A stretch of 14,670 nt of DNA from an uncultured bacterium (GTDB lineage: Bacteria; Patescibacteriota; Minisyncoccia; Phycocordibacterales; CAIJYI01): assembly GCA_937871115.1 (NCBI GenBank), contig CALMXW010000076.1, positions 1 to 14,670 of the forward strand. The letters run 5' to 3'. Positions 2,532-13,750 of this stretch are shown one piece after another. Below the pieces are notes generated by a model. The model saw nothing but the letters and a program-made list of their open reading frames with translations. It searched no databases and was not told the DNA's origin. The position numbers and the translations under genes were made by a program. Positions within the stretch are counted from its first letter, which is position 1, and each line of letters opens with the position of its first letter.

Positions 2532-3518
2532 ATGGAAAAACAGGAACTGCTCAAAAATATACGCGCCTCTCTTGAGCGAGGTATCATCACGCGCCAAGAC
2601 TTGGTAGAAATGTCCGATGTCACCGAAGTGGCACCCGAAAGCTCTGTCGCAAAACGCCATCTCGATATTTCGGAAATACTTTACTATCTCGGTGGTATCA
2701 TCGTCTTTATCGGTATTGCTATTTTTGTCGGAGAAAAGTGGGACACACTCGGCCCTGCCACAAAAGTCCTCGCCACGCTCGGTGTCGGCATCGCTGCCTA
2801 TGTTTCCGGAGTACTTCTCTCGACGTATAAAAATCTCGAGCGCATGGCCATCGGCTTTCACGTCATCGGAGCACTCCTTATTCCGGGCGGTATTTTCGTC
2901 GCTCTCGATGTCGCAGCGATCGACATAACTCTCGGGCTCTCTACGAGCATTTTCAGCGCACTCTTTGCTTTCTACGTTGTTTCCTATCTCGTGTACAAAA
3001 GAAATCTTTTTCTTTTCCTCTCGGTTCTCTTCGGCACGATTTCCTATTTCCTTTTTACCGATTATCTTACCCAAGATACCCAAACAATTTTCGGAGATGA
3101 TTTTTCTCTCTACCGCATACTTGTCTTGGGTCTCGCCTACATGCTCCTTGGATATTCTTTCCGCGCATGGGAGAGAGCTCCTTCACTCGTCGGTATCATG
3201 AATTCTGTCGGCATCATAAGCTTCCTCGGCGCGAGCTTTGCCCTCGGTGGCACATCACCCGATCAAAACATTTTCTGGGAAATAATTTTTCCGGGACTTG
3301 CTCTCGGAATCATCTTTCTCTCCACTCAGGTAAAGAGCCGATCCTACCTCATCCTTGGGACAATCTTCCTCATGGGATACATCTTCAAGATTACCGCAGA
3401 ATACTTTTCTGAAAGCATCGGATGGCCACTCGCTCTCGTCCTCGTCGGCTTCGCTTTTATCGGCATCGGATATGGCGCTGTCGCCCTCAACAAAAAATAT
3501 TTGAAGAGCGTGAAATAA
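2532..3518 (+). CDS. Polytopic membrane protein, DUF2157-like
   Basis: A 328-residue integral membrane protein. The first 45 residues are soluble, with MEKQELLKNIRASLERGIITRQDLVEM forming helices, like the cytoplasmic N-terminus of DUF2157-type predicted membrane proteins. About nine to ten hydrophobic helices follow, beginning with ISEILYYLGGIIVFIGIAIF and ending with WPLALVLVGFAFIGIGYGAVAL before a short basic tail. No active-site residues or transporter signature are evident. It starts 3 nt after the upstream stop without a Shine-Dalgarno site, consistent with translational coupling. A strong hairpin follows at 3543-3572. The family assignment rests on overall architecture and is tentative. 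Confidence 0.7.
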   Translation: MEKQELLKNIRASLERGIITRQDLVEMSDVTEVAPESSVAKRHLDISEILYYLGGIIVFIGIAIFVGEKWDTLGPATKVLATLGVGIAAYVSGVLLSTYKNLERMAIGFHVIGALLIPGGIFVALDVAAIDITLGLSTSIFSALFAFYVVSYLVYKRNLFLFLSVLFGTISYFLFTDYLTQDTQTIFGDDFSLYRILVLGLAYMLLGYSFRAWERAPSLVGIMNSVGIISFLGASFALGGTSPDQNIFWEIIFPGLALGIIFLSTQVKSRSYLILGTIFLMGYIFKITAEYFSESIGWPLALVLVGFAFIGIGYGAVALNKKYLKSVK

Positions 3519-3542
3519 CATTCCTCTTCAATTCTTACTTTC

Positions 3543-3574
3543 ACAAAACCTCTTTCCATAAAGGGGTTTTGTGC
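3543..3574 (+). terminator. Terminator hairpin after the membrane-protein pair
   Basis: A 13-bp stem with one G-T wobble pairs 3543-3555 (ACAAAACCTCTTT) with 3560-3572 (AAAGGGGTTTTGT) around the loop CCAT. The T-run lies in the 3' arm opposite an A-run, as in many intrinsic terminators. The tail overlaps the promoter of the next gene. Confidence 0.65.
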
Positions 3575-3580
3575 TATTGT
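3572..3580 (+). promoter_or_regulatory. Extended -10 promoter for the IDO-family gene
   Basis: TGC followed by TATTGT at 3575-3580 forms an extended -10 element; no good -35 box is visible. The predicted start near 3587 gives a leader of about 45 nt, with the ribosome site GGGAG at 3619-3623. The 11-mer TTTTGTGCTAT at 3567-3577 also occurs at 1925-1935, in front of the 1947 gene. Confidence 0.5.
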
Positions 3581-3631
3581 GACAGAAGAAGCTGTTTGCT
3601 TTTTGATTTTAGCTTTCTGGGAGATATTCTT

Positions 3632-4732
3632 ATGTCGCACCTCCTCAATCTTTTTCACAACCAGCGATGGCTTGTCGCTCGCGGGTTTTTACCAGAGTCT
3701 GATCCCACCACCCGGTTTCATTCCCACATGGATATTTCAGCGCTCGACGAAATTGGGCGTGATCTTCCGAGCCTGCTCGAAAACGGCGTCCTTCGACAAC
3801 GAGTGGAGAAAATGGAGATACCTCCTTGCCCGGAATACGACCGGCGGATACATCTCGACCTTATGCGTTTGTACTATATCCGGCTTGCTTTCTTGGCTTC
3901 CGGCTACATCCATCAGCTTGGCGCGGAGCCAGTAAAAGTTCTGCCAAAAAAGATAGCAATACCACTCGTAAATATCTGCCGTCGGCTCAATCGCCCGCCC
4001 ATACTCTCGTACGACGGCTACGCGCTGTACAACTGGAAACGCATCAACCCTCTGCGCCCGGTAGCTCTCGGCAACATCGAGACGATTCAAAACTTCGTCT
4101 TCGCGTACGACGAACACTGGTTCATCCTCGTCCATATCGAGATCGAAGCCATCGGCGCACGAATATTGCGGGCGATAAAACAATTCCTCGAAAAGAAGGA
4201 AGACCTGGTGGCAAATTTGAAAGAGATCGCAGATGCTGTTTTAGACATGAAGCGCGTACTCGAACGCATTCCCGAAAAGATGAGCTCAGCAACCTACGAC
4301 CGAACGTTTCGTCAGTACATCAAGCCATTTGATGGTATCGTCTACGAAGGGTGCTTCGACGACCAGCCTCAAACTTTTCGCGGAGAAACAGGGGCGCAAT
4401 CGACGATCATGCCCCTACTTGATGCGTTCATGAAAATTCCTCACGCCGAAACGGGACTCACTCAACATCTCTTGGACATGCACAATTACATGCCCTCGAA
4501 GCACCGAGAGATTCTTGCCGCGGCAGAAGCTTTGCCTAACTTTCGAGCATCAGCCCCGAGAGACGCCTACAACCCTGTCTTGGAAGCCATGGCACAATTT
4601 CGCGAAGTGCATTACACCTGGGCAAAGGAATATATCGCCGCGCATACCACTGATCCTCGAGGTACCGGGGGCACGCCGTACATGCTGTGGCTCAAGCAAC
4701 TCATCGACGAGACCCGTAGCGCAGTGCTCTAG
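3632..4732 (+). CDS. Indoleamine 2,3-dioxygenase (IDO) family heme protein
   Basis: A 366-residue cytosolic protein whose whole length aligns by eye with the IDO family (human IDO1 is 403 residues). IDO uses heme and O2 to open the indole ring of tryptophan to N-formylkynurenine. Conserved blocks run in order: LPKKIAIPL (104-112), RPPILSY (121-127) followed by NW (134-135), GIVYEG (235-240), MPSKHR (287-292) and RGTGGT (343-348). His327 in REVHYTW matches the proximal heme ligand His346 of human IDO1. Arg227 matches the carboxylate-binding Arg231, Asp264 matches Asp274 and Phe164 matches Phe163. His168 replaces Ser167, Tyr222 replaces Phe226 and Asp223 replaces Phe227. The ATG at 3632 has GGGAG 8 nt upstream and its own promoter, and terminators flank the gene. 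The open frame extends upstream to 3422, but that part overlaps the previous gene and is not IDO-like. Family membership is firm; tryptophan as the substrate is inference. Confidence 0.9.
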   Translation: MSHLLNLFHNQRWLVARGFLPESDPTTRFHSHMDISALDEIGRDLPSLLENGVLRQRVEKMEIPPCPEYDRRIHLDLMRLYYIRLAFLASGYIHQLGAEPVKVLPKKIAIPLVNICRRLNRPPILSYDGYALYNWKRINPLRPVALGNIETIQNFVFAYDEHWFILVHIEIEAIGARILRAIKQFLEKKEDLVANLKEIADAVLDMKRVLERIPEKMSSATYDRTFRQYIKPFDGIVYEGCFDDQPQTFRGETGAQSTIMPLLDAFMKIPHAETGLTQHLLDMHNYMPSKHREILAAAEALPNFRASAPRDAYNPVLEAMAQFREVHYTWAKEYIAAHTTDPRGTGGTPYMLWLKQLIDETRSAVL

Positions 4733-4745
4733 GGTCTCTCCTTAA

Positions 4746-4786
4746 AAACCCTGTGCTCATGGATGGCGCAGGGTTTCTCTTTTTTG
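4746..4786 (+). terminator. Terminator after the IDO-family gene
   Basis: An 11-bp stem with one G-T wobble pairs AAACCCTGTGC (4746-4756) with GCGCAGGGTTT (4766-4776) around a 9-nt loop, followed by CTCTTTTTT. Confidence 0.85.
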
Positions 4787-4792
4787 TACAAT
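4787..4792 (+). promoter_or_regulatory. -10 box of mutY, leaderless-type
   Basis: TACAAT at 4787-4792 sits directly after the terminator T-tract and 8 nt before the ATG at 4801. No convincing -35 box or Shine-Dalgarno site is visible. Confidence 0.5.
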
Positions 4793-4800
4793 AAAACCCC

Positions 4801-5697
4801 ATGCGAAACAAAAATATTTTTCTCACCGAAATTCTCCCTTGGTACGAAGAAAACAAGCGCAGACTTCCGTGGCGGAAAGCACGCATTTCTGCATACGAAG
4901 TTTGGGTTTCAGAAGTAATGCTCCAGCAGACGCAAGTAGCGCGGGTTATAGGATTTTATAAAAACTTTCTCAAAAGATTTCCAGACATTCAGACACTCGC
5001 CGAGACAAGCTGGGAAGAATTTTTGCCCTACTACGAAGGACTCGGCTACTATGCTCGTGGGCGCAACATGCTGGCCACCGCAAAAATAATTACAGAGAAA
5101 TATGGTGGCAAATTCCCGCGAGAGAAAAAGTCGCTCATGGCACTCCCGGGAGTGGGGGAGTACACTGCCTCTGCTCTTTTCTCTTTCGCATATGGCGAGC
5201 CAGAAATTGCCTTTGATACGAATTTCAAAAAAGTTTTCGGCACGAGAGAGAAAGCGGAGCAAGTATTCAAAGAGAGCGGTGTGCCAAGTGGTGTATTCAA
5301 TAGTGCCGTGATGGACTGGGGGAGCAAAGAACTACTTAAAAAGCAGAGTGGGAAGTTTGCCTCCCTCGCGGCTTTACCCGCAAGCGGGCTCCGACACCGA
5401 CTCGGTATACAAACTTCCCGCTCTGCTTCTCCAACACGCACCCATCTCACTCTCCATGAAAATCATAAAAAATATTTTTCTCTCAATCCGAAAAAATATG
5501 AGCCATTCATCCTGCCAGTAAATATTTCTACCAGAGAACAAATTAAAAAATATTTTCTCGACACCTACGGACTAAAAATTTCTGTTCGCCCACCGCACAA
5601 AAAAGAGAAGCTTGGGGGAAAACTTTTTCAGCACGTAAATGCGCAGATACTTCTCGGACACCACAAATTTTTTGCTTTTCCGTCGAGCAAGAAGTAG
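4801..5697 (+). CDS. mutY: A/G-specific adenine DNA glycosylase, without Fe-S cysteines and with a palindromic insertion
   Basis: DNA-repair glycosylase that removes adenine mispaired with 8-oxoguanine. The helix-hairpin-helix GPD fold is clear: LPWR (22-25), YEVWVSEVMLQQTQV (32-46) with catalytic Glu38, YYEGLGYYARGRNM (77-90), hairpin LPGVGEYTA (115-123) and catalytic Asp139 in AFDTNFKKV. NSAVMDWGS (167-175) matches the usual NQALMDLGA block. The four cysteines that normally follow and hold a [4Fe-4S] cluster are missing, and the protein has no cysteine at all. Residues 181-209 are encoded by a palindromic element (5341-5428), so this stretch is probably inserted sequence. The segment after Asp139 is shorter than in E. 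coli MutY. The C-terminal part (about 225-298) is a shortened domain at the place of the NUDIX-like 8-oxoG recognition domain. Activity is plausible because the catalytic residues remain, but it is unproven. Confidence 0.85.
   Translation: MRNKNIFLTEILPWYEENKRRLPWRKARISAYEVWVSEVMLQQTQVARVIGFYKNFLKRFPDIQTLAETSWEEFLPYYEGLGYYARGRNMLATAKIITEKYGGKFPREKKSLMALPGVGEYTASALFSFAYGEPEIAFDTNFKKVFGTREKAEQVFKESGVPSGVFNSAVMDWGSKELLKKQSGKFASLAALPASGLRHRLGIQTSRSASPTRTHLTLHENHKKYFSLNPKKYEPFILPVNISTREQIKKYFLDTYGLKISVRPPHKKEKLGGKLFQHVNAQILLGHHKFFAFPSSKK
5341..5428. repeat. 88-bp palindromic element inserted in frame in mutY
   Basis: The 19-nt left arm AAGCAGAGTGGGAAGTTTG (5341-5359) pairs with the right arm CAAACTTCCCGCTCTGCTT (5410-5428) with a single T-G wobble. 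The 50-nt interior is GC-rich and holds two smaller hairpins: CCCG/CGGG at 5377-5388 and CCGA/TCGG at 5391-5405. The element reads through in the mutY frame as about 29 residues, ASLAALPASGLRHRLGIQTS being the central part. This peptide is unlike MutY and lies exactly where the Fe-S loop would be. The structure resembles small palindromic or MITE-like elements. No clear target-site duplication is seen. Confidence 0.75.
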
Positions 5698-5843: not shown

Positions 5844-5868
5844 CAGACGCACACAACTTGTGTGTCTG
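5844..5868 (+). promoter_or_regulatory. 5'-leader hairpin of the 5910 gene
   Basis: CAGAC/GTCTG and ACAC/GTGT form a 9-bp stem with a 2-nt bulge (5849-5850) and loop AACTT. It would lie almost at the 5' end of the transcript, where such hairpins often protect mRNA. A regulatory role is inference. Confidence 0.4.
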
Positions 5869-5909
5869 GAAAGGGGCTCTTTCACACACCACAAATCAAT
5901 GGAGATGTC

Positions 5910-6524
5910 ATGGACACAGTCACCGCTCCGCAGTTTCGTCGCCCTCGCAACGCACGCCGGACCATTTCGGGCTCTGTCGCAAGACTGAACGCACCAAATG
6001 TTACAACGGAGACACAGAAAACTGGGTCTTCGGAAACAACGCGAGTCAAACTCCGTCCCACCGGACGGAAATTCCAAGATCGCGACGTTATTACCTTCGT
6101 GGACTTTCCCGGCCGGCCGGGCTGGAATGGGAAGGAGGGATTCTGGAACGGAAAGGCATATGTCTTGGTCCCAACTTCAACAACCCCAACAAAAAAGCGC
6201 GCACCAAAATGCGCACCACGTCGGACCGTTCTCCCAGCAGAAGAGTGCGCAGATATCCTCCTCTTCGCACAGCAGCACACTGGGGAAAAGATTCGCCGCT
6301 TCATACTTGAGCGCAACATCTATGCCTGGCAGGTGCCTGGCTTGCAGGAAAGGCTCAACGAGCTTTTGGCGAAGGAGCAGCAGGAAGGTTTCGAGCGCAA
6401 CCGAGTTGAGTGGAAACGCCTCACTAAAGAAAGAGCGGCCCTTCGCAAGGGTTGGAGCCCGGAAGTCGCCGCCGTGATGGAAAACCTTTCGGGTCCCATG
6501 ATGGCGGGCCAGCAGAGACGATAA
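5910..6524 (+). CDS. Small basic protein, function unknown
   Basis: A 204-residue soluble protein rich in Arg, Lys and Thr, with no signal peptide or membrane helix. The first 60 residues look disordered and basic (APQFRRPRNARRTISGS). A Trp/Gly-rich segment, VDFPGRPGWNGKEGFW, follows at about residues 64-80. The C-terminal half looks helical and charged (RFILERNIYAWQVPGLQERL, then ERNRVEWKRLTKERAAL). No family is recognised; the basic tail and charged helices would suit a nucleic-acid or ribosome-associated protein, but that is only a guess. The ATG at 5910 is supported by GGAG at 5901-5904, 5 nt away. A GTG at 5862 in the same frame is less likely because it lies in the leader hairpin. The gene has its own consensus promoter and terminator. 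Confidence 0.7.
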   Translation: MDTVTAPQFRRPRNARRTISGSVARLNAPNVTTETQKTGSSETTRVKLRPTGRKFQDRDVITFVDFPGRPGWNGKEGFWNGKAYVLVPTSTTPTKKRAPKCAPRRTVLPAEECADILLFAQQHTGEKIRRFILERNIYAWQVPGLQERLNELLAKEQQEGFERNRVEWKRLTKERAALRKGWSPEVAAVMENLSGPMMAGQQRR

Positions 6525-8777: not shown

Positions 8778-11255
8778 ATGCAAGCATACGACCCAAAAAA
8801 GATAGAGGGAAAATGGCAGAAGAAATGGCAAGAAAAAAAAGCCGCGGAGAAACTTTCACGCGCGCAAGATACATCAAAAAAAGAGAAATACTACACCCTC
8901 GTCGAGTTTCCATTTCCTTCTGGCGACGGACTCCATGTCGGCCACGTGCGAAGCTATGTCGCTCTCGACATCCTCTCGCGCAAACGACGTATGGAGGGAT
9001 ACAACGTCCTCTACCCGATAGGTTGGGACGCTTTCGGCTTACCCACAGAAAATTATGCGCTCAAGACCGGGATCCACCCCGCGAAAGTGACGAAACAAAA
9101 TACCGACAACTTCCGCAAACAGCTTAAGGCACTCGGGCTTTCTTTTGACTGGTCGCGTGAAATAAACACCACCGATCCGGAATATTACAAATGGACACAG
9201 TGGATCTTCCTCAAGCTGTATGAAAAAGGACTCGCGTATAAAACAAAAACAGAAATTAGCTGGTGTCCTTCCTGCAAAATCGGACTCGCGAACGAAGAAG
9301 TGATAGACGGAAAATGCGAACGCTGTGGAACAGCAGTGGAGAAGCGCGAGAAAGAGCAGTGGATGCTCGCCATCACAAAGTATGCCGACCGACTGCTGAG
9401 CGATTTGGACACGGTGGACTATTTGGAGAAAATAAAAATACAGCAAAGAAATTGGATAGGGAAGAGCGAGGGTGCAGAGATAGATTTTAAACTTTCGGGA
9501 ATCTCCGGGCAAGAAGACGGCAAGCACTCCGTAAAAGTTTTTACCACCCGGCCAGACACGATCTTTGGCGCAACATTTCTCGCCATCTCGCCCGAGCTGG
9601 CGCAGGAGTGGCTTAATGTCGGCTGGGAAGCAAACGGGGATGTAAAAAAATATGTTGTGAGCGAGCTGAAAGAAAGAAAAGCTCGAGACTTTCAGGAAAA
9701 AGAGAAAACTGGAGTAAACACAGAAATTACTGCCATCAATCCAGCAAATGGGGAGAAAATTCCTGTGTGGGTGGTGAATTATGTTTTGGGTGGTGTTGGC
9801 ACCGGCGCAATCATGGCGGTGCCTGCGCATGATGAGCGAGACTTTGAGTTTGCAAAGAAGTTTGAGCTAGAAATAAAGTTTGTAATCACCCCTGTCGTCT
9901 CTGGCGATGGCGGAACAACCCTAAAAATTCTTCACGATATTTGGGATAAAAAAGAATTCTTTCGTGGCGTTCAAGACATGCCGGGTATACTGACGGCGTC
10001 TGGAAAATTTTCCGGCATGGATTCTGAAGAAGCGAAGAGAAAGATTACCGACTTTGTGGGCGGGAAGTGGACGGCTACTTATAAACTTCGCGACTGGGTC
10101 TTCTCACGCCAGAGATATTGGGGCGAGCCGATACCGATGATCTTTTGCGAGAAGTGCTACTGGGTGCCGGTGCCGGAAAAAGATTTGCCGGTGAAGTTGC
10201 CGAATGTAAAAAATTACCAGCCGACGGATACCGGCGAATCGCCACTTGCCAGCATTTCAAAATGGGTAAATGTAAAATGCCCGAAGTGCAAGTCTCCGGC
10301 CAAGCGCGAGACAGATGTCATGCCAAACTGGGCGGGCTCTTCGTGGTATTTCTTGCGCTACATTGATCCGAAAAATAAAAAAGCGTTAGCAGATCCGGAA
10401 AAATTAAAACACTGGATGGGAGTAGACTGGTACAACGGCGGGATGGAGCACACGACGCTTCACCTCCTGTACTCAAGATTCTGGAATAAATTTTTGTTCG
10501 ACATCGGTGTCGTGCCGGTGAGCGAGCCATATAAAAAGCGAACCTCACATGGCCTCATCCTTGCCGAAGGGGGAGTGAAGATGAGCAAGTCGAAAGGCAA
10601 CGTGGTCAATCCAAACGCTATCGTCGCCGAGTACGGAGCGGACACTTTGCGCGTGTATGAAATGTTTATGGGGCCGTTTGACCAAGCCATCGCGTGGGAC
10701 GAAAAGAGTATCATTGGCTCGCGAAGATTCTTGGAAAGAGTGTGGAAACTCACTCTAAAAATTGAAGATAAAAAAAGAAAAGCGCCCGAGTCAAAAAATC
10801 TGGAGCGGACACTTCATCAGACGATCAAAAAAATATCTGAAGACATTGAGAACATGCGCTACAACACGGCCATCTCGACCATGATGGTTTTCCTCAACGA
10901 AGCGGAAAAAGAAGAAATACTTTCGCAAGAAATCTATGAAACATTCTTGATACTCCTCGCGCCGTTTGCTCCACACATGACGGAAGAACTTTGGTCTGTC
11001 TTGGGAAATAAAAAATCTGTTCATCTCGAAGCCTGGCCGAAATGGGACGAATCAAAGCTCATCTCCACCACTATGACCATCGCCCTCCAGGTCAACGGCA
11101 AGCTCCGTGGCACCCTCGAAGTGCCCGCCGGTACGAACGAAGGGGAAGTGCGCTCATTGGCCCTCGAAAACGAGTCTGTGCAGAAGTGGCTCGAGAGCAA
11201 AGAGCCCCAAAAGGTGATTTATATCCCCGGAAAACTCGTCAGTATCGTGGTATAA
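8778..11255 (+). CDS. leuS: Leucyl-tRNA synthetase
   Basis: A class I aminoacyl-tRNA synthetase charging tRNA-Leu with leucine. Its 825 residues suit a bacterial LeuRS. The signature HIGH appears as HVGH (53-56) after FPFPSGDGL, and KMSKS is at 601-605. The CP1 editing domain that clears mischarged tRNA is present, with TTRPDT (256-261) and GTGAIMAVPAHDERD. Two Cys4 zinc knuckles are visible: Cys163/166/180/183 (CPSC...CERC) and Cys457/460/501/504 (CEKC...CPKC). The anticodon-binding helical domain and the small C-terminal domain (LQVNGKLRGTLEVPAG) complete it. It starts 15 nt after the mreD-like gene, probably both by read-through and from its own promoter, and ends at a UUCG-loop terminator. 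Confidence 0.98.
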   Translation: MQAYDPKKIEGKWQKKWQEKKAAEKLSRAQDTSKKEKYYTLVEFPFPSGDGLHVGHVRSYVALDILSRKRRMEGYNVLYPIGWDAFGLPTENYALKTGIHPAKVTKQNTDNFRKQLKALGLSFDWSREINTTDPEYYKWTQWIFLKLYEKGLAYKTKTEISWCPSCKIGLANEEVIDGKCERCGTAVEKREKEQWMLAITKYADRLLSDLDTVDYLEKIKIQQRNWIGKSEGAEIDFKLSGISGQEDGKHSVKVFTTRPDTIFGATFLAISPELAQEWLNVGWEANGDVKKYVVSELKERKARDFQEKEKTGVNTEITAINPANGEKIPVWVVNYVLGGVGTGAIMAVPAHDERDFEFAKKFELEIKFVITPVVSGDGGTTLKILHDIWDKKEFFRGVQDMPGILTASGKFSGMDSEEAKRKITDFVGGKWTATYKLRDWVFSRQRYWGEPIPMIFCEKCYWVPVPEKDLPVKLPNVKNYQPTDTGESPLASISKWVNVKCPKCKSPAKRETDVMPNWAGSSWYFLRYIDPKNKKALADPEKLKHWMGVDWYNGGMEHTTLHLLYSRFWNKFLFDIGVVPVSEPYKKRTSHGLILAEGGVKMSKSKGNVVNPNAIVAEYGADTLRVYEMFMGPFDQAIAWDEKSIIGSRRFLERVWKLTLKIEDKKRKAPESKNLERTLHQTIKKISEDIENMRYNTAISTMMVFLNEAEKEEILSQEIYETFLILLAPFAPHMTEELWSVLGNKKSVHLEAWPKWDESKLISTTMTIALQVNGKLRGTLEVPAGTNEGEVRSLALENESVQKWLESKEPQKVIYIPGKLVSIVV

Positions 11256-12496: not shown

Positions 12497-13750
12497 ATGC
12501 CGGATATTTCCTCCTTCGAAAATATTTCGTCTCTCGACGCGGTGCTCTTTGCAGTCCGCCTTCTTCTCGACATCTTGCCGTACGTCCTTCCTTTCTTTCT
12601 GGGCTTCGCACTCTGGTCACTCTGGAAGAATTACATCCAGATTCTCTTTATGTCGAAGATGCAGTGGGTGGTGCTCGAGATAACCCCACCGCCCGAAGCA
12701 AAGAAGACTCCGCTCTCTATGGAGATCGTCCTCTCCGCCCTTCATCAACCAAACCCGGGGAATTTTTGGGAGAGGATTTGGCTCGGGCAAATAGTGCGCT
12801 GGTCTTCACTCGAAATAATTTCTATCGGAGGTGAAGTACGTTTCCTTGTCCGCACCGAAACACGGCATAAAAACTTTCTTGAAGCGCAAATTTACTCTCA
12901 GTATCCTTCGGTAGAAATTCGCGAGATACCAGACTACGTGTACGACGTAGAATATCACGGAGACAACGAGGAGTGGAAACTCTGGGCCACTGAGTATAAT
13001 CTTTCAAAGCCTGACGCATATCCCATTAAAACTTACGTCGACTACGAACTCGACAAAATAGCACAGCGCGAAGACCAAGAGGAGCTTAAGACTGATCCGC
13101 TCACCACTATTATCGAAATCTTTGGCTCTATTGGCCCCCAAGAGCAACTCTGGATGCAGATGATTATTCGTGCTTCAAGTAAAACGTATCGAAACAAAGA
13201 TGTCTGGTTTGGAGACTGGTTTGGTCGACGCGACTGGAAAGGTGAGGCGAAAGTTATCCTGAAAAAATTGAAAGAAAAAGTCGGGGAAGGAAAGGCTTCA
13301 AAAGAAGAGCAAGAAACGATGGCGGCTATCGAGAAAAAAATTTCGAAGCTTGGATACGATACTGGCATTCGAGTTATCTATATTGCAAAGCCCGATGCTT
13401 TCAAAAATCCCGTCACCACCGGATTACGAGGAATGATGAAAGGGTACAGCACTCAGCACCTCAACGGATTTAAGAATCAAGATGCTACGAGCGGAGAGTA
13501 TCCTTTTGAAAAGTGGGACTATGATCTTTCTACTTTCAAATTTAAAAACGTGGCAAAAAACCAGCGCGAGATGTTTGATGCTTATCGCCAAAGATCATAT
13601 TTTTATATTCCATACAAAAGAAAATATTTTGTCTTAAACACCGAAGAGCTTGCCACATTATTCCATATCCCAAGCAAAGCCGCACAGACACCGGGCCTTC
13701 TCCGCATCGGCTCTCATAAGGGCACGCCCCCGACCAATCTGCCAATTTAA
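12497..13750 (+). CDS. Membrane-anchored protein resembling the N-terminal partner of VirB4-type ATPases
   Basis: A 417-residue protein with one N-terminal membrane region (about 15-50, AVLFAVRLLLDILPYVLPFF) and a large, charged soluble part. It has no Walker A or B motif, so it is not itself the ATPase. The C-terminal block YFVLNTEELATLFHIPS (about 377-393), followed by GTPPTNLP at the very end, resembles, from memory, the segment that precedes the ATPase domain in VirB4/TraC-like and DUF87 proteins of CPR genomes. A charged coiled-coil-like stretch (KVILKKLKEKVGEGKASKEE) lies near residues 252-271. It could belong to a type IV secretion or pilus-like machine. No other component is visible here. 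mltG starts 8 nt downstream, so the two are probably co-transcribed; a lytic transglycosylase beside an envelope-spanning machine would make sense. Confidence 0.6.
   Translation: MPDISSFENISSLDAVLFAVRLLLDILPYVLPFFLGFALWSLWKNYIQILFMSKMQWVVLEITPPPEAKKTPLSMEIVLSALHQPNPGNFWERIWLGQIVRWSSLEIISIGGEVRFLVRTETRHKNFLEAQIYSQYPSVEIREIPDYVYDVEYHGDNEEWKLWATEYNLSKPDAYPIKTYVDYELDKIAQREDQEELKTDPLTTIIEIFGSIGPQEQLWMQMIIRASSKTYRNKDVWFGDWFGRRDWKGEAKVILKKLKEKVGEGKASKEEQETMAAIEKKISKLGYDTGIRVIYIAKPDAFKNPVTTGLRGMMKGYSTQHLNGFKNQDATSGEYPFEKWDYDLSTFKFKNVAKNQREMFDAYRQRSYFYIPYKRKYFVLNTEELATLFHIPSKAAQTPGLLRIGSHKGTPPTNLPI

Follow-up and report, generated by a model that had tools for sequence, protein, structure and literature searches.

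An intact, apparently horizontally acquired indoleamine 2,3-dioxygenase-family gene in a small-genomed bacterium of the Phycocordibacterales

A genuine and intact gene belonging to the indoleamine 2,3-dioxygenase (IDO) family was identified on contig CALMXW010000076.1 of an uncultured member of the Patescibacteriota (order Phycocordibacterales); the whole stretch analysed, 14,670 nucleotides, is referred to hereafter as the window. Judged from its sequence, and with moderate confidence, we assign the gene to a bacterial IDO subfamily, regard it as intact and gained by horizontal transfer, and take its product to be, most likely, a working heme-dependent dioxygenase. The family is known, but such a host for it was not expected; the case is moderately surprising, and the recurrence of IDO genes in the order lifts it above a curiosity.

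3632..4732, + strand: IDO-family protein of 366 amino acids, ATG at 3632, stop codon ending at 4732 (PF01231, translation)

The earlier note on this DNA had assigned the whole protein to the IDO family and had proposed a profile search and a structure prediction as checks. The curated profile search gave 209.1 bits against PF01231, far over the cut-off of 26, and the predicted structure has the IDO fold, so that the assignment stands. None of the NCBIfam models matched the protein at 1e-3. The mechanical list of open reading frames offers an upstream in-frame ATG at 3422 as an alternative start, which lies inside an overlap with the preceding gene.

Residues were mapped onto human IDO1 and compared across 397 rows (279 of type A and 118 of type B). 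His327 corresponds to the proximal heme ligand H346, Arg227 to the substrate-site arginine R231 and Asp264 to D274, in agreement with the earlier assignments, and the motifs GIVYEG, MPSKHR and GTGGT (the last at residues 344-348) are all present in the translated protein in the order first described. On this alignment Asp264 is no mark of the subfamily of the window protein: its place holds Val in 240 of the type A rows and Asp in all 118 type B rows. The distal place, held in human IDO1 by Ser167, is His168 in the window protein and invariant in 397/397 rows. Human IDO1 has Gly262-Ser263-Ala264 where the window protein has Glu-Thr-Gly. Three strongly kept positions depart. At the place of IDO1 Phe227 stands the non-aromatic Asp223, a position that is Tyr in 206, Phe in 53, His in 18 and Asp in one (P0033) of the 279 type A rows, with one other residue in the last, and Tyr (93) or Phe (25) in type B. 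Gln228 replaces a Pro found in 277/279 type A and 118/118 type B rows, and Phe157 a His found in 262/279 type A rows (Gly or Ala in type B). Phe226, Phe227 and Arg231 are important for the activity of human IDO1. From the alignment, Asp223, Gln228 and Phe157 could reflect changed specificity or a new substrate, relaxed constraint, or lost function.

The following signals flank the gene:

3542..3573, + strand: hairpin of 14 base pairs in the gap separating the DUF2157 and IDO genes, within a fold of z -3.9 that no shuffle equalled in stability
3619..3623, + strand: Shine-Dalgarno-like GGGAG, 8 bases 5' of the ATG, read by eye
4746..4776, + strand: intrinsic-terminator-like hairpin with a T-rich tail, 3' of the IDO gene (z -3.9)

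The gene had been described as having its own promoter and ribosome site and as bounded by terminators. The ribosome site is plausible, but a promoter scan of 3300-5000 returned no sites (shuffles averaged 1.5), which leaves the promoter claim unsupported. The downstream terminator is well supported; upstream, the strong hairpin has no T-run on its 3' side. Terminator-like sites numbered two against a shuffle mean of 1.9, showing no excess.

The genome that carries the window comprises 753,628 bases in 142 contigs and is 95.7% complete with 1.16% contamination; its relatives in the order range from 0.4 to 1.2 Mb. It contained no match to the profiles for ferrochelatase (8/14 control genomes match), TrpA (14/14), COX1 (8/14) or CydA (10/14), nor to kynureninase, for which ten of the controls matched but only two over the cut-off. 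As far as the absence of markers goes, with one profile per function in a genome 95.7% complete, the host appears to lack synthesis of both heme and tryptophan, and the picture of an IDO in a very small genome without markers for heme, a terminal oxidase or tryptophan synthase was borne out. The COX1, TrpA, CydA and kynureninase searches covered this genome and its relatives, among which the six other IDO carriers of the order (see below) do not figure; weak matches below cut-off were seen for COX1 in G015, TrpA in G027 and kynureninase in G001 and G028. The ferrochelatase profile had no match in any of the seven carriers. According to a passage of PMC7507113, oxygen reductases occur in 3 of 492 Patescibacteria single-cell genomes. 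O2-using enzymes have been reported in CPR MAGs, with kynurenine 3-monooxygenase, HPPD and catechol 2,3-dioxygenase in Paceibacteria, and heme biosynthesis genes in CPR are mentioned in the same article (PMC12577380, 2025); O2 use and heme synthesis are therefore both claimed there for some CPR. The main text of that article never uses the word indoleamine. Our literature search, conducted partly by title and with thin coverage of subscription journals, found no report of an IDO in Patescibacteria, Parcubacteria or the candidate phyla radiation.

In smaller samples the gene looked unique, with the genome of the window the sole carrier both among 60 relatives and among 379 genomes of the phylum. 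This singleton reading was rejected by a wider survey, also suggested earlier, in which PF01231 matched 7/397 genomes of the order, spread over four family codes and five genus codes; 0/14 control genomes matched, so that this search had no positive control. Six of the seven exceeded the cut-off, and the seventh, G508, scored 24.4 bits with a reading frame open to the contig end. IDO is thus rare yet recurrent in the order. No copy was found in G001-G003, which belong to the same family as the window genome, and no match in G312, which shares its genus code with the IDO-bearing G728. G486 and G594, of one genus code, share an IDO neighbourhood with triosephosphate isomerase, phosphoglycerate kinase and ArgRS, while G546 and G508 have an upstream gene in common (53% identical). 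Nine neighbours of IDO genes in order-mates were compared with Pfam and included no heme or tryptophan partner; they were thymidylate synthase, HIT, deaminase, AAA, glycosyltransferase, PfkB kinase, tRNA-synthetase-like and HTH proteins and one without a match. The IDO genes of L101 (8087-9349) and L103 (9063-10343), from two species sharing a genus code, lie in a conserved stretch, the L101 copy directly 3' of the gene for ribosomal protein L11.

The origin of the gene was addressed by database scans and by a phylogeny, the latter also proposed in the earlier note. Among the matches listed, 119 other relatives were 54-59% identical to the window protein. A contig scan that used only the window protein as query returned no loci; with alignment A1 instead, it gave 69, all titled to other groups and none to Patescibacteria. 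No partner gene was widely shared in the neighbourhoods of these loci, and the commonest shared neighbours, which include ValRS and an M17 aminopeptidase, recur in 8-10 loci of Oceanospirillales. As a separate observation, 4/69 loci (L013, L054, L057 and L063; Pfam was run on the L057 copy) have an HPPD-like gene no more than about 4 kb from IDO, a possible link between this IDO subfamily and aromatic amino-acid breakdown.

The tree placed the window protein in a clade of 40 rows with support of 100, comprising rows from Pseudomonadota, Planctomycetota, Binatota and Myxococcota and including the IDO of Neptuniibacter caesariensis, an aerobic marine gammaproteobacterium. The tree leaves the exact sister of the window protein open, as it does the place of P0016, whose candidacy as sister on the basis of shared motifs was not upheld. 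The copies of G728, G486, G594, G546 and G449 fell outside this clade and grouped with a second bacterial subfamily; they share with the window protein the heme ligand, the Arg and the distal His at 29-37% identity, and their genomes, like that of the window, lack a ferrochelatase match. No other order genome searched has the subfamily of the window protein. A common origin of the full-length order copies was rejected: a single clade of eight order-type rows (six order copies plus P0216 and P0217, which are 74% and 69% identical to the G546 copy) gave a p-AU of 2e-8. The corresponding clade of seven rows without the window protein was not rejected (p 0.78), the constrained tree scoring above the free one; the results support a minimum of two origins and no larger number. 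Because the relatives belong to other groups and the order copies do not form one clade, the window gene appears, on sequence grounds, to have been acquired horizontally from other bacteria. Several rows are long-branched and the tree was a quick one, so that detailed places in it are unsure, and it leaves out a third branch known from the literature (Gemmatimonas and Streptomyces IDOs). The contigs L072 and L074, both short and titled as MAGs of Gammaproteobacteria and Deltaproteobacteria, carry IDOs of the second subfamily, which were the best matches of all five other order copies among the rows then compared.

If the protein works as we favour, heme scavenged from a neighbouring or host cell would be loaded onto it and O2 would serve to cleave the ring of an indole-type substrate. 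The main alternative is a classical tryptophan dioxygenase, converting L-tryptophan to N-formylkynurenine and serving, for example, host depletion or signalling, or O2 removal; we consider this unlikely. Besides family and predicted fold, the window protein shares with human IDO1 the equivalents of Tyr127, Phe164, Arg227, His327 and GTGGT (window numbering), and the human S167H mutant, the chain compared here and likewise with His at the distal place, was crystallised with tryptophan and cyanide according to the title of entry 6cxu. The absence of a TrpA match would mean that tryptophan comes from outside, which cuts both ways, for an auxotroph would be breaking down what it must import. No kynureninase match was found in its own genome, and Asp223 replaces IDO1 Phe227. 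The activity reported for a relative in its clade also argues against it: section 9 of a review (PMC4217691, citing Yuasa et al. 2011) describes recombinant IDOs of N. caesariensis and Erythrobacter litoralis as very slow on tryptophan. The N. caesariensis enzyme (L067, type A) has the same heme ligand, distal His, Arg and Tyr127 as the window protein, but Phe instead of Asp at 223 and Gly instead of Lys at 231. Since the two share a clade, the window protein too probably turns over L-tryptophan poorly, an argument that draws on this review passage and on an enzyme about 50% identical to the window protein. The earlier label of a tryptophan-destroying dioxygenase therefore keeps its family assignment, whereas destruction of tryptophan is doubtful and no safe default. 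Turnover of another indole compound, consumption of O2, or both would seem more likely than classical kynurenine-pathway catabolism.

Somewhat less probable again is a decaying or non-catalytic protein, that is, a recent acquisition without useful cofactor supply, open but drifting, or one that only binds heme or O2. The departures at positions 157, 223 and 228, the lack of detected heme synthesis (ferrochelatase profile, own genome) and the family-mates without a copy would all fit such a history. The frame is nonetheless intact across 366 codons, the heme ligand and the residues of the loop are conserved, and a plausible ribosome site and a terminator are present. Selection could be estimated for the G486/G594 pair only, as no sister of the window gene turned up in the genomes searched. 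These two IDOs are 75% identical with a dN of 0.18 and a dS of 1.9 (LWL85; NG86 was saturated), which indicates that they are kept by purifying selection, and their dN is similar to that of tpiA (0.19) and argS (0.16).

A functional dioxygenase, which remains the reading we prefer, would imply heme import and some exposure to O2. The observation itself is that several reduced genomes of a single order, none with a detected ferrochelatase, contain an enzyme family dependent on heme and O2. It adds carriers to an IDO branch, and the small size of their genomes could help to delimit what IDO does. A wider idea, which we regard as a long shot, is that small-genomed bacteria apparently without heme synthesis have recruited IDO-type heme dioxygenases more than one time and supply them with heme from the host, altering an indole compound (tryptophan or other) or the O2 level at the point of host contact. 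If true, cells regarded as purely fermentative would possess an interaction enzyme that depends on O2.

The contig itself is apparently native, as judged from these genes:

2532..3518, + strand: DUF2157 membrane protein (PF09925), upstream neighbour, not one unit with IDO
4801..5697, + strand: MutY-like adenine glycosylase, downstream neighbour (PF00730; TIGR01084 181 bits, below the cut-off of 286.5, residues 8-147)
8778..11255, + strand: leucine--tRNA ligase (TIGR00396, 999 bits), used as the test of a native contig

The leucine--tRNA ligase had matches in 21/21 genomes searched (its own included), full-length and in a single piece at 56-62% identity in six relatives and at 54% over 116-825 in a seventh, and a sigma-70 region 4/HARE-HTH gene adjoins it in 5/7 of the relative stretches fetched. 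The DUF2157 protein matched in 6/30 relatives at 30-35% identity. A search for the empty site did not find the upstream genes of the window near the ligase gene in the stretches of seven relatives. An assembly or binning artefact, with the gene derived from an aerobic contaminant of the sample, is very improbable: the relatives listed belong to other groups, the assembly is in 142 contigs and no other order genome searched has this subfamily, but the gene sits inside a 14.7 kb contig between genes that match order relatives, its GC (0.45-0.53 in windows) falls inside the contig range (0.41-0.56), a chimera would need two junctions, and six other order genomes hold IDO with neighbours common to two pairs. 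In the MutY-like protein (298 residues) the MutY profiles cover only residues 6-147, leaving the second half unmatched, and the NCBIfam scores are below cut-offs. Three small reading frames (143, 193 and 220 amino acids; 1407-2528 and 5862-6524) have no Pfam match at 0.01, nor has a 417-residue protein at 12497-13750. The contig further encodes MreB, MreC, the sigma-70 region 4/HARE-HTH protein and two tRNAs.
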